Assembly (NCBI RefSeq): GCF_000455205.1
Contig: NZ_AUWQ01000041.1
Location: 1 to 64,000, forward strand
Length of the DNA: 64,000 nucleotides
Origin: Mycobacterium sp. UM_CSW
GTDB taxonomy: Bacteria > Actinomycetota > Actinomycetes > Mycobacteriales > Mycobacteriaceae
Reading direction: 5' to 3'
The notes under the pieces were generated by a model. That model was given only the letters and a program-made list of their open reading frames with translations. It was not told where the DNA came from and searched no databases. This document shows positions 3,921 through 9,102 of this stretch, one piece after another. The first letter of the stretch is position 1. Each line of letters begins with the position of its first letter. The position numbers and the translations under genes are program-made.

Positions 3921-4323
3921 GGGCCGGCCGGGCGAACCGCAAGGCGCTCGGCTGCACCATGTTTCGCCGGTCCCGCGCCGATGCGGGCCGGACGTTTCTC
4001 TCAGCGTGACTTTTATCCGCGGGCCCCGCTTCGGCCCGAAGTGAGCGCCGCAGGCGCGGCCGACCATCGCGCCCGCGCCGCGGGGCCGTCGTCGCACCGC
4101 GCCCGCGTCCGCGAATCGGCGAAGCCCTCCTCGACCTGTGCCTTTGCCGTCGATGGCACCGATTGGTTGCTGCGCATGTGGATCGACAACGGGATCGAGT
4201 CAATCGATCACGCGCGATCCCGGCGTTACGGTCGGGTTACACCGCCCGCTTTGCGTGTGACGTAGTGCGGGCGGCGTGGGTGGGCCGCGTTGCTGTCCGC
4301 GCGCCGACGGGGGCTTGCGCTGT
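3921..4323. other. Intergenic stretch without a supported gene
   Basis: I see no convincing gene, RNA or repeat here. Short GC-rich open frames exist on both strands but lack family resemblance and ribosome-binding sites. The 3' end holds the upstream part of the promoter for the cysteine-rich leader ORF. Confidence 0.5.
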
Positions 4324-4329
4324 TAGGCT
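4324..4329 (+). promoter_or_regulatory. -10 box of the leaderless cysteine uORF
   Basis: TAGGCT fits the mycobacterial TANNNT -10 element. It is separated by exactly 7 nt from the ATG at 4337, so the transcript would begin at the start codon itself (leaderless). Confidence 0.6.
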
Positions 4330-4336
4330 TCCCGCC

Positions 4337-4387
4337 ATGCACGCGGTAGCCCTTGTTTGCTCCCCATTCGTGCATTGTTGTCGCTGA
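4337..4387 (+). CDS. Leaderless cysteine-rich leader peptide of the sulfate operon
   Basis: The 16-codon ORF encodes MHAVALVCSPFVHCCR, three cysteines with two adjacent just before the stop. Cys is a rare residue, so this density is informative. It lies 109 nt upstream of subI and behind a leaderless promoter. Cysteine-rich leaderless uORFs that make downstream sulfur-assimilation genes respond to cysteine supply have been described in mycobacteria. This one has the right layout and neighbour: slow decoding at the Cys codons would report low cysteine to the sulfate importer. The peptide itself probably has no function. Confidence 0.7.
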   Translation: MHAVALVCSPFVHCCR

Positions 4388-4441
4388 CTCGTAAGCCCGT
4401 GCGCGGATTGGGAGTTGGTAAAGACCGGTTGATGTTCTAGC

Positions 4442-4490
4442 GCCTTCCGCAGCCACGGGACCGACACGCCCGAGTCCCATCCCGGAAGGC
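4442..4490 (+). promoter_or_regulatory. RBS-sequestering hairpin before subI
   Basis: GCCTTCCG (4442-4449) is the exact complement of CGGAAGGC (4483-4490), and inside them GGGAC (4457-4461) pairs with GTCCC (4474-4478). The 3' strand contains GGAAGG (4484-4489), the only good Shine-Dalgarno sequence for the subI TTG start, at 7-nt spacing. In this fold the subI RBS is inaccessible, giving a plausible switch coupled to the uORF upstream. Confidence 0.6.
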
Positions 4491-4496
4491 CACCAA

Positions 4497-5543
4497 TTGC
4501 TCAGCGACATCCGAAGCACACGGCAGGGGCGGCGCGCCCGCCAGCTGGCCGCGCTGACCCTTGTGGTCGGCATGGTCGCGGCATGCGGCGGCGGCGCCAG
4601 CGACATCGCGGGCGGCACCGGCCCGGCCAACGCGAACACGAAGATCACCCTGGTCGCCTATTCGGTCCCGGAACCGGGCTGGAGCAAGGTGATTCCGGCG
4701 TTCAACGCCTCGCAGGAGGGTCGGGGCGTGCAGGTGATCACGTCCTACGGGGCCTCCGCCGACCAGTCCCGGGGCGTCGTCGAGGGCAAACCGGCAGACA
4801 TCGTGAACTTCTCGGTCGAGCCGGACGTCACCCGGTTGGTCAAGGCCGGCAAGGTCTCCGCGGACTGGGACAAGGGCGTCGCCAGCGGGATTCCCTTCGG
4901 GTCGGTGGTGACACTGGTTGTCCGCAAAGGCAATCCGAAGAACATCCGCGATTGGGACGACCTGCTGCGCCCCGGCATCGAGGTCGTCACGCCCAGCCCG
5001 CTGAGTTCGGGCGGTGCCAAGTGGAACCTGCTCGCCCCGTATGCAGCCAAAAGCGGCGGCGGCCGGGACACCAACGCCGGCGTCGATTTCATCAGCAAGC
5101 TGGTGCACGAGCACGTCAAATTGCGTCCGAGTTCGGGTCGTCTGGCCACGGGTGTCTTCATCGAAGGCAGCGGTGACGTGTTGATCAGCTACGAGAACGA
5201 GGCCATCGCCATTGAGCGGCAAGGAAAATCGGTGGAACACGTCAATCCGACTCAGACCTTCAAGATCGAGAACCCGCTGGCGGTGGTGAGCACCAGTGCG
5301 CACCTGGATGCCGCGACCGCGTTCAAGAATTTCCAGTACACCGCCGAGGCGCAGAAGTTGTGGGCGCAGGCCGGTTTCCGGCCGGTCGACCCCGCCGTGG
5401 CCGACAAGTTCCGCGACCAGTACCCGGTGCCGGTGAAGTTGTGGACGATCGCCGACCTGGGCGGCTGGAGCAAGGTGGACGCGCAGCTGTTCGACAGGAG
5501 CGGCGGCAGCATCACCAAGGTCTACCTGCAGGCGACCGGATGA
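4497..5543 (+). CDS. subI: Sulfate-binding lipoprotein SubI
   Basis: The 348-residue protein is the extracytoplasmic solute-binding component of the sulfate/thiosulfate ABC importer. A signal peptide ends in the lipobox VAAC with the lipidated Cys at residue 30, followed by a periplasmic-binding-protein fold (early VAYSVPEPGW segment; ITSYGASADQSRGVVEGKPADIV ligand-binding region). The TTG start is chosen from GGAAGG 7 nt upstream. The stop overlaps the cysT start by ATGA, so the genes are translationally coupled. Expression is probably attenuated by the Cys uORF and hairpin immediately upstream. Confidence 0.93.
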   Translation: MLSDIRSTRQGRRARQLAALTLVVGMVAACGGGASDIAGGTGPANANTKITLVAYSVPEPGWSKVIPAFNASQEGRGVQVITSYGASADQSRGVVEGKPADIVNFSVEPDVTRLVKAGKVSADWDKGVASGIPFGSVVTLVVRKGNPKNIRDWDDLLRPGIEVVTPSPLSSGGAKWNLLAPYAAKSGGGRDTNAGVDFISKLVHEHVKLRPSSGRLATGVFIEGSGDVLISYENEAIAIERQGKSVEHVNPTQTFKIENPLAVVSTSAHLDAATAFKNFQYTAEAQKLWAQAGFRPVDPAVADKFRDQYPVPVKLWTIADLGGWSKVDAQLFDRSGGSITKVYLQATG

Positions 5544-6430
5544 CCGCGGCCGTTCTCCCCGACCCGGAAGCGGTCCGGCCGGAACTCGAACCACCCGCCG
5601 GTGAGCTGCCGGAGCCCCGCCCCCCGCGTGCCCCCGGCCCGCCCGGCGGGACGTCGCTTCAGGTCGGCGTGGCGACGCTGTGGCTCTCGCTGATCGTGCT
5701 GCTGCCGCTGGCCGCCATTGCCTGGCAGGCCGTCGGTGGGGGCTGGCAGGCGTTCTGGCTGGCGGTCACATCTCACGCCGCGCTGGAGTCGTTCAAGGTG
5801 ACGCTGACGGTTTCGGTGGTGGTCACCATCGTCAACCTGGTGTTCGGGCTGGCGACCGCCTGGGTGCTGGTGCGCGACGACTTCGTCGGCAAAGGAGTGC
5901 TCGACGCCATCATCGACCTGCCGTTCGCGCTGCCCACCATCGTCACCAGCCTGGTCATGCTGGCCCTCTATGGCAAGAACAGCCCGGTAGGCATTCACTT
6001 GCAGCACACCCCGCCGGGCGTGGCGGTGGCGTTGATCTTCGTGACGCTGCCGATGGTGGTGCGGGCCATCCAGCCCGTGCTGCTGGAAATCGACCGCGAA
6101 GCCGAGGAGGCGGCGGCGTCCCTGGGTGCGACCGGTCCCAAGGTTTTCACCTCGGTCGTGTTGCCGTCGCTGACGCCGGCCTTGTTATCCGGTGCCGGCC
6201 TGGCGTTTTCGCGTTGCATCGGCGAGTTCGGTTCGGTGGTGACGATCGGCGGGCAGGTGCCGGGCAAGACCGAGGTGTCGTCGCAGTGGATCCGCGCCCT
6301 GATCGAGAACGACGACCGCACCGGCGCCGCCGCCATATCCATTGTCACGCTGTCGATTTCGTTCACCGTGCTGCTGCTCTTGCGCATCGTGGGCGGCCGG
6401 AGGGCCAAACGCGAGGAGAAGGCCGCATGA
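5540..6430 (+). CDS. cysT: Sulfate ABC transporter permease CysT
   Basis: The 296-residue inner-membrane permease begins at ATG 5540, overlapping the subI stop. A proline-rich cytoplasmic N-terminus (residues 1-35) precedes about six TM helices. The EAA-type loop that contacts the ATPase is visible as EEAAASLGATGPKVF. With CysW it forms the heterodimeric channel for sulfate or thiosulfate entering the assimilation pathway. It ends in an ATGA overlap with cysW. Confidence 0.92.
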   Translation: MTAAVLPDPEAVRPELEPPAGELPEPRPPRAPGPPGGTSLQVGVATLWLSLIVLLPLAAIAWQAVGGGWQAFWLAVTSHAALESFKVTLTVSVVVTIVNLVFGLATAWVLVRDDFVGKGVLDAIIDLPFALPTIVTSLVMLALYGKNSPVGIHLQHTPPGVAVALIFVTLPMVVRAIQPVLLEIDREAEEAAASLGATGPKVFTSVVLPSLTPALLSGAGLAFSRCIGEFGSVVTIGGQVPGKTEVSSQWIRALIENDDRTGAAAISIVTLSISFTVLLLLRIVGGRRAKREEKAA

Positions 6431-7236
6431 GCTCGGGGCGCTACGCGCTCCGCTCGGTGGTGCTGGCCTACCTCGGTGTGGTGCTGGTCGCTCCGGTGGT
6501 CATCATCTTGTGGCGCACCTTCCGGCCCGGCCTCGCTCAGTTCTACACGTGGATCAGCACGCCGGCGGCCATCTCGGCCCTGCACCTGTCGCTGCTGGTG
6601 GTGGCCATCGTGGTGCCGCTCAACGTCATATTCGGTGTCTTGGTCTCACTCCTGTTGGCGCGCAGCCGATTCCGCGGCCGGGGAGTGCTGCAGACGGTCG
6701 TGGACCTACCGTTCGCGGTCTCGCCGATCATCGTGGGCGTCGCGCTGATCGTGCTCTGGGGCTCGGCCGGCGCGCTGGGTTTCGTCGAAAAGGATCTCGG
6801 CATTCCGGTGATCTTCAGTACCCCCGGCATCGTGCTGGCCAGCATCTTCGTCACCCTGCCGTTCGTGGTGCGCGAGGTCCAACCGGTGCTGCAGGAAGTG
6901 GGGACCGAGCAGGAACAGGCGGCCGCGACGCTGGGTTCGGGTTGGTGGCAGACTTTTTGGCGGATCACGCTGCCGTCCATCCGGTGGGGATTGACCTACG
7001 GCATCCTGTTGACCACCGCGCGCACCCTCGGCGAGTTCGGCGGGGTCATCATGGTGTCGTCCAACCTGCCGGGGGAATCGCAGACGCTCACGCTGCTGGT
7101 GAACGATCGCTACAACCGTGGGGCCGAATACGGCGCCTACGCGCTGTCGACGCTGATGATGGGCGTCGCGGTCGCGTTTCTGATCGTCAAGGCCATTCTG
7201 CTCATTCGCCGGGCGCGAGCTCGGGCCCAGGCATGA
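6427..7236 (+). CDS. cysW: Sulfate ABC transporter permease CysW
   Basis: The 269-residue permease has six predicted TM helices and the EAA loop [17 protein letters not shown]. It is the partner of CysT in the sulfate importer. The ATG at 6427 overlaps the cysT stop. Sixteen bases separate its stop from cysA. Confidence 0.92.
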
Positions 7237-7252
7237 CAAGGAGACAACAACC

Positions 7253-8314
7253 ATGAGCGAAAACGGGGGCGACCCGACCGCGTACGCGATCACGGTGCGG
7301 GACGCCTATAAGCGTTATGGCGATTTCGTGGCGTTGGATCATGTGGACTTCGTGGTGCCGAAGGGTTCGTTGACGGCGTTGTTGGGGCCCAGTGGGTCGG
7401 GCAAGTCGACGCTGTTGCGCGCCATCGCGGGGCTGGATCACCCCGACTCCGGCACGGTGACGATCGACGGCCGTGATGTCACGGGGGTGCCACCGCAGCG
7501 GCGCGGGATCGGGTTCGTGTTTCAGCATTATGCGGCGTTCAAGCACCTGACGGTGCGCGACAACGTGGCCTATGGGCTCAAGATCCGCAAGCGGCCCAAG
7601 GCCGAGATCAAGAAGAAGGTGGACAACCTGCTGGAGGTGGTGGGGCTCAGCGGTTTTCAGACCCGTTATCCCAACCAGCTTTCCGGCGGTCAGCGCCAGC
7701 GCATGGCGTTGGCCCGCGCGCTGGCGGTCGATCCGCAGGTGTTGTTGCTCGACGAGCCGTTCGGGGCGCTGGATGCCAAGGTGCGCGAGGATTTGCGGGC
7801 GTGGTTGCGCCGCCTGCACGACGAGGTGCACGTCACCACGGTGTTGGTGACCCACGATCAGCAGGAGGCGCTGGACGTGGCCGATCGGATCGCGGTGCTC
7901 AACAAGGGCCGCATCGAGCAGGTCGGGTCACCGCTCGAGGTCTACGACTCCCCGGCGAACACATTCGTGATGTCGTTCCTGGGCGCGGTGTCCGTGCTCA
8001 ACGGTGCCCTGGTGCGCCCGCACGACATTCGGGTGGGCCGCAACCCCGAGATGGCGGTGGCCGGCGGCGACGGCACGGCGGAGTCGATCGGGGTGGTGCG
8101 GGCCACCGTCGATCGGGTGGTGGCGCTGGGCTTCGAGGTGCGCGTGGAACTGACCGCCGAGGCCACCGGGGGCCCGTTCACCGCGCAGATCACCCGCGGT
8201 GACGCCGAGGCACTGGCCCTGCGCGACGGCGACACCGTCTACGTGCGTGCGACCCGCGTGCCGCCGATCGCCAGCGAGGTGACGGAGGATCAGGCGGGAG
8301 TCGGCTCGGCCTGA
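7253..8314 (+). CDS. cysA: Sulfate ABC transporter ATP-binding protein CysA
   Basis: The 353-residue ATPase has Walker [10 protein letters not shown] (about residues 45-53), the Q-loop VFQHY, signature LSGGQRQR (about 142), Walker B VLLLDEP (about 163) and the switch histidine in VTHDQ. The C-terminal 110 residues form the TOBE-type regulatory domain typical of sulfate/molybdate ATPases. The start follows AAGGAGACAACAACC. It energises CysT/CysW import of sulfate delivered by SubI. Confidence 0.94.
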
Positions 8315-8328
8315 CGAGCACGCCTGTT

Positions 8329-8664
8329 TTACCCGGTGGTCGTCCGGTATTGCGGGCAGTACGCGGACGACGACAGCCCCAGGAAGAAGCCGGCCTGCCT
8401 GGCCGAGAGATTCGCGTCCTTCATCAGCTTCATGACGAGCAGGGGCCGCGTGGTGCCCTGGTCGAGTAGTGCACACATATTCCTGCCCATCCCGATGGCG
8501 ACGTTGTTATCGGAAATCGGGATCCCCTGGCTCGCAAGGGCGGCGATGAACGCGTCATCGTTTTGGTCGGCCGATGCCGGCGCGGCGAAGAGCGGCGCCG
8601 CGGCGGAAAGCAGGACCGCCACTAACGTCGACCACTTTCCAGAACCCATGTGCGGATGGGCCAC
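8329..8664 (-). CDS. DUF732 small secreted protein
   Basis: The 111-residue protein has a signal peptide (hydrophobic LVAVLLSAAAPLFA, cleavage after ASA) and the DUF732 core: DDAFIAAL, a central Cys, and a C-terminal Cys in the SSAYCPQYR segment, probably disulfide-linked. DUF732 proteins are common, secreted and of unknown function in mycobacteria. A GTG start at 8664 is chosen because AAGAGGA lies just upstream; an ATG at 8649 is the alternative. It is a tandem paralogue of 8728-9102. Confidence 0.85.
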   Translation of the reverse strand: MAHPHMGSGKWSTLVAVLLSAAAPLFAAPASADQNDDAFIAALASQGIPISDNNVAIGMGRNMCALLDQGTTRPLLVMKLMKDANLSARQAGFFLGLSSSAYCPQYRTTTG

Positions 8665-8727: not shown

Positions 8728-9102
8728 TCACATCATCGGCGGGAACGGCACCATCCAGTTCATCGAGTTGTCGGTCTTGCCCCGATACTGCGGGCAGTAG
8801 GCAGCCACCGAAAGGCCGACGAAGTAGCCGGCCTGCTTCGGCGAAAGCGGGGTGTCCTTCACGATCCCCATCGCCACCGCGGTTGACGCCTCACCCTTGT
8901 CGAATCCGGCGCACACCGTATGTCCCATCGAGACCGCGGTGCCGCGGTCGGACATCGATATCCCGTTTTTCGCGAGGGCCGCGACGAACGCATCGTCGAT
9001 CGGCTCCGCCGATGCTGGCGCCGCACCCAGCAGCGCGGCCGCGGACAACAGGACCCCGCAGGCGATCGACCACTTCGCTGCACCCGCGTTCGTCCGGGTC
9101 AT
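8728..9102 (-). CDS. DUF732 small secreted protein, tandem paralogue
   Basis: The 124-residue protein has a signal peptide ending in ASAEP and the same core as its downstream neighbour (DDAFVAALAKNGI, a mid-chain Cys, AAYCPQYRG). It has an extra hydrophobic, methionine-rich C-terminal tail (NWMVPFPPMM). Start ATG 9102 follows GGGGGAGG. Sequence before both DUF732 genes is also related (TTGA then CGAAGC and ATTC), so the duplication carried the upstream region with it. Molecular role unknown. Confidence 0.87.
   Translation of the reverse strand: MTRTNAGAAKWSIACGVLLSAAALLGAAPASAEPIDDAFVAALAKNGISMSDRGTAVSMGHTVCAGFDKGEASTAVAMGIVKDTPLSPKQAGYFVGLSVAAYCPQYRGKTDNSMNWMVPFPPMM

Follow-up and report, generated by a model that had tools for sequence, protein, structure and literature searches.

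We analyzed a 64,000-nt stretch of DNA from Mycobacterium sp. UM_CSW (assembly GCF_000455205.1, contig NZ_AUWQ01000041.1, positions 1 to 64,000), hereafter the window, in which the subI-cysTWA sulfate import operon is preceded by a leader (4337-4496) with a TAGGCT promoter box, an upstream open reading frame (uORF) containing cysteine (Cys) codons and a two-stem hairpin. The genus-wide cysteine leader is real, and a translational attenuator is what it most likely constitutes; judged from its sequence, the leader in the window on balance probably acts as a ribosome-operated translational attenuator of the operon. A more detailed proposal, which we put forward tentatively and with somewhat less than even confidence, is a genus-wide, cysteine-responsive switch of four segments, in which an antisequestor would decide during transcription whether the Shine-Dalgarno sequence (SD) of subI is buried, and in which the pair of codons at the stall site is UGU instead of the usual UGC. 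Imported sulfate is the source of the sulfur in cysteine.

The leader and its conservation

An extended -10 element, TGT-TAGGCT (4321-4329, plus strand; TAGGCT at 4324-4329), is separated by 7 nt from the ATG at 4337-4339, which predicts a leaderless start at 4337, and the uORF that begins there (4337-4387, plus strand) encodes MHAVALVCSPFVHCCR and ends in a stop codon. Direct reading of the sequence confirmed the TANNNT box 7 nt ahead of the ATG of a 16-codon uORF given in a preliminary description of this DNA, with Cys-Ser at codons 8-9 and Cys-Cys at codons 14-15 (4376-4381). Of 79 leaders, counting that of the window, 70 have the box 7 nt and 9 have it 6 nt before the ATG; in those with 7-nt spacing the T, A and T of TANNNT each had a frequency of 1.00 and the preceding TG letters one of 0.99. 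No sigma-70 consensus promoter was found for the leader region, and transcription probably starts on the A of the ATG at 4337, which would make the uORF leaderless. Such mini-ORFs, defined as 4-40 codons with a start 6-7 nt past a TANNNT box, numbered two on the plus strand of the window and zero on the minus strand, and this uORF was the only one with Cys-Cys in its last four residues; 30 block-shuffled windows held a mean of 8.1 mini-ORFs, none with Cys-Cys in that position.

Both the uORF and the hairpin proved to be conserved in the comparison across mycobacteria that the preliminary description had proposed. The subI loci compared were the best 80 of 426, some being second copies in one genome or near duplicates, and in 78 of the 80 a TANNNT box was followed by an ORF that starts with ATG, is no longer than 40 codons and contains Cys; the leader was absent at two metagenome-assembled loci (L035 and L048). 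A covariance model built from 52 leaders, which match by construction and whose species may sit in the genus sample, matched 273 of 297 genomes of the genus, including 261 of the 275 of good quality. Fourteen genomes matched in a family sample of 151, ten of them being the genome under study and others of its genus, at 61 bits or more. The four matches in other genera (L159-L162, 25.9-27.0 bits) were rejected as leaders, a Cys-Cys uORF being absent; the E-values of weak matches (0.001-0.003 per genome) are rough and no proof of chance.

The Cys codons near the end of the uORF had been proposed as a sensor, a role that the terminal Cys-Cys, the retained part of the uORF, may have; Cys-Ser finds no support as part of it, and the upstream Cys positions differ among related uORFs. 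At the related loci the peptide was 7-36 residues long and variable in sequence outside the last residues. A long form, mostly of 30 or 34 codons, was seen at L028, L029, L032, L036, L056 and other loci, and many 30-codon uORFs share the core ALIAVG..AVADV, their peptides being more alike than those of the short forms.

The Cys-Cys-Arg-stop sequence TGTTGTCGCTGA (4376-4387, plus strand), the presumed stall site, was nearly invariant, silent positions included. Across the 78 uORFs that have a run of Cys codons, the final run comprised 159 TGT and 14 TGC codons; the remaining Cys codons of these uORFs were 79 TGC and 13 TGT, and the long open frames of the same subI loci contained 856 TGC and 210 TGT. 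The YGC, the TGA and the next C after the Cys pair were nearly fixed. Given this TGT bias and the fixed bases that follow, it seems that the RNA or the kind of codon is under selection, and not the peptide alone. The exact motif at the uORF end, TGTTGTYGCTGA, occurs in four copies in the same genome, two of which are the two subI leaders found there; it was rejected as the mark of a wider regulon, since L114 and L116, the two remaining copies, showed no short uORF with its end there.

The hairpin has an outer stem of 8 bp, formed by GCCTTCCG (4442-4449) with CGGAAGGC (4483-4490), and an inner stem of 5 bp, formed by GGGAC (4457-4461) with GTCCC (4474-4478). Its 3' strand carries GGAAGG (4484-4489), the only SD of subI, exactly as had been reported. 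Structure was compared in a set of 52 leaders drawn from 80 (the 79 plus the second copy of the same genome), after removal of four with a stop-to-start distance outside 95-135 nt, seven with weak anchors, ten at least 93% alike to a kept leader, and seven badly aligned ones taken out by hand (L016, L045, L049, L050, L070, L075 and L078). In this set the mean openness of the SD was 0.150, compared to 0.370 once the stretch from stop to SD had been dinucleotide-shuffled, and it was lower than shuffled in 44 leaders; the window SD had an openness of 0.008 against 0.339, a value equally low in 7.5% of its 40 shuffles. The ribosome-binding site of subI is predicted by these folding calculations to be sequestered by RNA structure. 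In total folding energy the window leader was ordinary (z -1.03), with 31 of 200 shuffles folding as well. As a concrete mechanism, the SD hairpin of the preliminary description has conserved parts, but the claim did not include by what means a ribosome stalled some 60 nt upstream could open it.

Candidate alternative pairings

Past the uORF stop lies a conserved candidate antisequestor, segment 2 (CCCGTGCGCGGATTGGGAGT, 4396-4415, plus strand), supported by its paired cells with segment 3 (2:3) and by duplex energy. It may pair either with segment 1, the uORF codons before the Cys pair (4359-4375, plus strand; window-leader fold and duplex energy), or with segment 3, the anti-SD arm together with the 5' strand of the inner stem (4442-4462, plus strand; 2:3 and 3:4 pairing tests and duplex energies). 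Segment 4 is the 3' strand of the sequestering hairpin with the SD (4474-4490, plus strand; 3:4 paired cells and double changes), and the choice of segment 2 between 1:2 and 2:3 would make the leader a candidate four-segment attenuator.

In the window the duplex energies were -20.2 (1:2), -23.1 (2:3) and -25.0 kcal/mol (3:4). Over the 52 leaders the mean 1:2 duplex of -14.8 was matched by none of 2000 partner permutations, the mean 2:3 duplex of -22.1 by two and the mean 3:4 duplex of -19.6 by 52, counts that are optimistic because the sequences are related. A native preference was absent for 1:4, 2:4, 1:3 and the Cys tract with segments 2, 3 or 4, which were rejected as candidates. In almost every one of the 52 leaders, the bases UCGC of the uORF-end motif are complementary to GCGG of segment 2, and both hardly vary. 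On alignment A1, 91.5% of the 2:3 cells were paired (slid controls at most 51.4%), as were 87.8% of the 3:4 cells (at most 70.1%) and 88.7% of the 1:2 cells (at most 65.0%); six double-change cells for 2:3 were reached by 11 of 500 shuffles, and ten for 3:4 by 3 of 500. RNAalifold, run on the trimmed alignment, gave both 2:3 (0.95-0.99) and a pairing of the uORF with the SD (0.69-0.92). The sum of the 1:2 and 3:4 energies lay below that of 2:3 in 51 of 52 leaders, which is easily achieved since two helices are set against one. About 170 nt before subI, the M. leprae uORF (L072) ends in DYCC, and its leader has a 3:4 duplex of -11.9, weak beside the mean of -19.6; the terminal Cys pair is lost at L029 and at L064 (M. 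lepromatosis), and the uORF of L064, likewise about 170 nt before subI, has also lost the usual stop. Decay of the leader in M. lepromatosis and M. leprae is possible.

Predicted effect of ribosome position

Given the candidate pairings, folding was predicted with a ribosome placed at successive positions, with a 15/15 footprint meaning that 15 nt were covered on each side of the ribosome position. For the window transcript reaching to segment 3, a ribosome placed on the first of the two terminal Cys codons left 15.0 pairs of 2:3 and 0.1 of 1:2, and at the stop codon of the same unfinished transcript it left 0.4 and 7.1, respectively. The unfinished transcript without a ribosome was mixed (9.1 of 2:3 and 6.8 of 1:2), and with an initiating ribosome 1:2 prevailed (16.9). 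Across the 52 leaders, 2:3 was more abundant in the halted state than in the stop state in 43 and less so in 6, and three other footprints gave 32:9, 40:7 and 43:5 in the same order; relative to the free unfinished transcript, the halt raised 2:3 in 28 leaders and lowered it in 6. Mean 2:3 pairing peaked on the Cys codons (11.4-11.9), compared to 9.1-10.4 at earlier codons and 5.7 at the stop, with a shift of the peak to the Arg codon (12.6) under a 15/12 footprint.

Once the leader was complete, its equilibrium fold was dominated in the window by 3:4 at every ribosome position, so that, for the window at least, an ON state would have to be transient and arise during transcription. Over the 52 leaders, the halt at equilibrium raised 2:3 in 17 and lowered it in 4, and lowered 3:4 in 21 and raised it in 5; a ribosome slid along 79 leaders brought a mean SD gain of 0.02-0.04 at the two Cys codons. 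Freezing early helices and then extending the transcript raised SD openness from 0.16 to 0.44, yet it gave 0.44-0.45 for halted, stop, initiating and absent ribosomes and was rejected as evidence, being equal for all ribosome states.

In the mechanism that we infer, with its stalling, order of folding, opening of the SD and response to cysteine, the transcript would begin at the A of the ATG at 4337 and a 70S ribosome would start the uORF immediately. With ample Cys-tRNA, the ribosome would reach the UGA behind the Cys pair and depart, whereupon segment 1 would pair with segment 2 and segment 3 would remain to bury the SD in segment 4 (OFF). With scarce Cys-tRNA, it would halt on UGU-UGU and mask segment 1, and segment 2 would seize segment 3 before segment 4 is transcribed, so that the SD would stay open (ON). 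The parts themselves, their conservation and their complementarity can be read from the sequences.

Several results weigh against this mechanism. The outcome for the window depends on the footprint, as 2:3 at the stop codon was 13.6 with a 15/12 footprint and mixed (7.2) with 18/15, and 2:3 was permitted by a ribosome halted on each of the last ten codons that were tested, which indicates that the Cys pair is near the last, and not the sole, place that leaves segment 2 free. The second leader of the same genome did not switch (2:3 of 1.9 halted, 0.9 at stop, 4.8 free and 11.2 initiating), nor did that of M. leprae switch as predicted (1.6 halted, 8.3 at stop). At equilibrium the full-leader fold kept the window SD closed (at most 0.084 over the last nine uORF codons and the stop), and over 79 leaders a ribosome 15 codons past the stop gained more SD opening (0.06) than one at the Cys codons. 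Covariation is modest for 2:3 and 3:4 and none for 1:2, whose two double-change cells were reached by 404 of 500 shuffles; in slid controls the double-change cells reached 20 for 2:3 and 17 for 3:4, above the native 6 and 10, so that double changes by themselves do not decide the matter. On the raw untrimmed alignment RNAalifold returned only four other pairs, with neither 2:3 nor uORF:SD among them. Finally, although 38 of the 52 leaders have a 2:3 energy at or below that of 3:4, the window is not among them (-23.1 vs -25.0).

Genomic context and related leaders

The gene behind the leader had been described as a sulfate importer, an assignment upheld by all four encoded proteins, each scoring above its NCBIfam cut-off. 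The sulfate ATP-binding cassette transporter substrate-binding protein SubI (4497-5543, plus strand; TIGR00971) starts with TTG at 4497-4499 and is followed in the same operon by cysT, cysW and cysA, the last encoding the sulfate ATP-binding subunit (5540-8314, plus strand; TIGR02139, TIGR02140 and TIGR00968). The start codon chosen for subI was ATG in 65 and TTG in 14 of the 79 leaders. Upstream of the window copy is a gene for an iron-sulfur protein with weak, below cut-off likeness to QueG, and just past the operon lies a tandem of two small predicted proteins on the minus strand (8329-8664 and 8728-9102) with signal-like starts, similar to each other by eye.

The same genome carries a second subI, 78% identical (C2:154991-156034), with a Cys uORF leader of its own (G000:C2:154991-156185; L082, L115). 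Its layout is that of the window leader, and the SD and anti-SD are matched though their letters differ (GGAAGG/CCTTCC vs GAAAGG/CCTTTC). About 6.6 kb from it is a 595-codon frame with two NIR_SIR matches, likely a sulfite/nitrite reductase; no TANNNT Cys uORF was seen near this gene in the stretch examined (L163, L166). Within this genome the covariance model found the two subI leaders and nothing else above 21 bits, and the weaker matches L148 (20.6 bits) and L149 (16.7 bits) were rejected as leaders, a Cys-Cys uORF being absent. By hand count, at least two subI matches were present in 30 of the 297 genomes of the genus, 22 of which also had two leader matches; one genome (G240) had two leader matches and one subI match. 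A leaderless uORF, MSARLEPMLTMRRTVDLCRIAGCCCCCSC, lies upstream of a rhodanese locus in the genome under study (G000:C17, L169 position 780) and resembles the published polycysteine type, with CCCCCSC compared to the two adjacent Cys of the window uORF.

Discussion

A simpler, two-part attenuator, in which the halted ribosome would act on the SD without an antisequestor, for example by blocking direct uORF:SD pairing, is unlikely but is the alternative that we take most seriously. Canestrari et al. in 2020 reportedly modeled the mycobacterial polycysteine uORFs in this way, as a blocking of direct uORF:SD pairing. RNAalifold on the trimmed alignment did join the SD region to the uORF codons that precede the Cys pair, alongside 2:3, and a passage of a 2026 paper (PMC13236596) describes general translation attenuation as uORF:SD pairing, citing Canestrari 2020 for M. 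smegmatis cysteine genes. The 1:4 duplex, however, did not surpass permuted partners, 642 of 2000 of which were as good, and letter shuffles gave a stronger one (-11.0 vs -10.6 native; -6.3 in the window). Regulation might instead lie in Rho-dependent termination between uORF and subI with the hairpin secondary, as was proposed in 2005 for Mycobacterium cys leaders according to passages of PMC1262725; the stop-to-start gap of 97-131 nt in 75 of 79 leaders and the finding of no intrinsic terminator in 4200-4700 are in its favor. We regard this as quite improbable, since a halted uORF ribosome would leave the gap equally untranslated, so that Cys shortage would not obviously relieve Rho, and since it leaves the matched SD and anti-SD arms unexplained.

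That 3:4 in the window is stable at equilibrium for every ribosome position would also suit a hairpin that merely damps subI translation at a constant level, next to a uORF that is a separate gene for a cysteine-rich micropeptide. There is little probability in this, as the peptide varies outside its last residues and the conservation of silent Cys positions and post-stop bases points to RNA. That a short ORF was paired by chance with a GC-rich hairpin, in line with the ordinary folding energy of the window leader (z -1.03), is very improbable given a leader conserved genus-wide and a conserved promoter. A ribosome-operated translational attenuator built of these four segments, with the qualifications above, is the reading that we prefer.

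In attenuators of the trp and his type, the leader peptide contains regulatory codons, and the 1:2, 2:3 and 3:4 pairings of the RNA are mutually exclusive. The subI leader is like them in its leader-peptide codons and would be like them in the exclusive pairings proposed for it; it is unlike them in that its 3:4 hairpin is predicted to hide an SD and does not end transcription. The search for known RNA families in Rfam returned zero matches at the gathering threshold on the window and zero at E up to 1 on 4200-4700.

Cysteine leaders have been described in mycobacteria before. Passages of Seliverstov 2005 (PMC1262725) report leader peptides with Cys runs before Mycobacterium cys operons, other attenuator elements being missing; the subI leader shares with these a short ORF, Cys codons near the stop and the absence of a conserved terminator hairpin, and subI is not named in those passages. 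Shell et al. 2015 described leaderless Cys uORFs before cysA2, Rv0485 and nirA, and for the cysA2 case they report ribosome occupancy in the M. smegmatis ortholog (PMC4633059). The leaderless layout is shared, whereas those uORFs precede other genes and the words sulfate, hairpin and subI are absent from the text of PMC4633059. In passages of three papers, Canestrari 2020 is cited for cysteine-dependent attenuation by leaderless polycysteine ORFs in M. smegmatis (PMC9094748, PMC9031893, PMC13236596), the first of which also refers to six ORFs of this type that conservation predicts in M. tuberculosis. As described there, these attenuators resemble the subI leader in placing a leaderless uORF that contains neighboring Cys codons before genes of sulfur metabolism; for them it is reported, and for subI proposed, that the supply of cysteine governs the genes that follow. 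They differ from the subI leader, which has just two adjacent terminal Cys codons and a proposed separate segment 2.

Given these descriptions by Seliverstov 2005, Shell 2015 and Canestrari 2020, the kind of leader is already known, and the subI leader is most likely a new member of the known leaderless Cys-uORF class, its RNA logic being a testable proposal. No title on a subI leader was present among the matches listed, a scope outside which Canestrari 2020 in full falls, and the passages on mycobacterial Cys leaders contained neither an antisequestor nor a silent-site bias for subI. If the proposal is true, the antisequestor would be the attenuator element reported missing for the mycobacterial cys leaders in 2005, and a leader that ties Cys-tRNA supply to translation of the importer would offer a compact model of translational amino-acid attenuation from leaderless mRNA.
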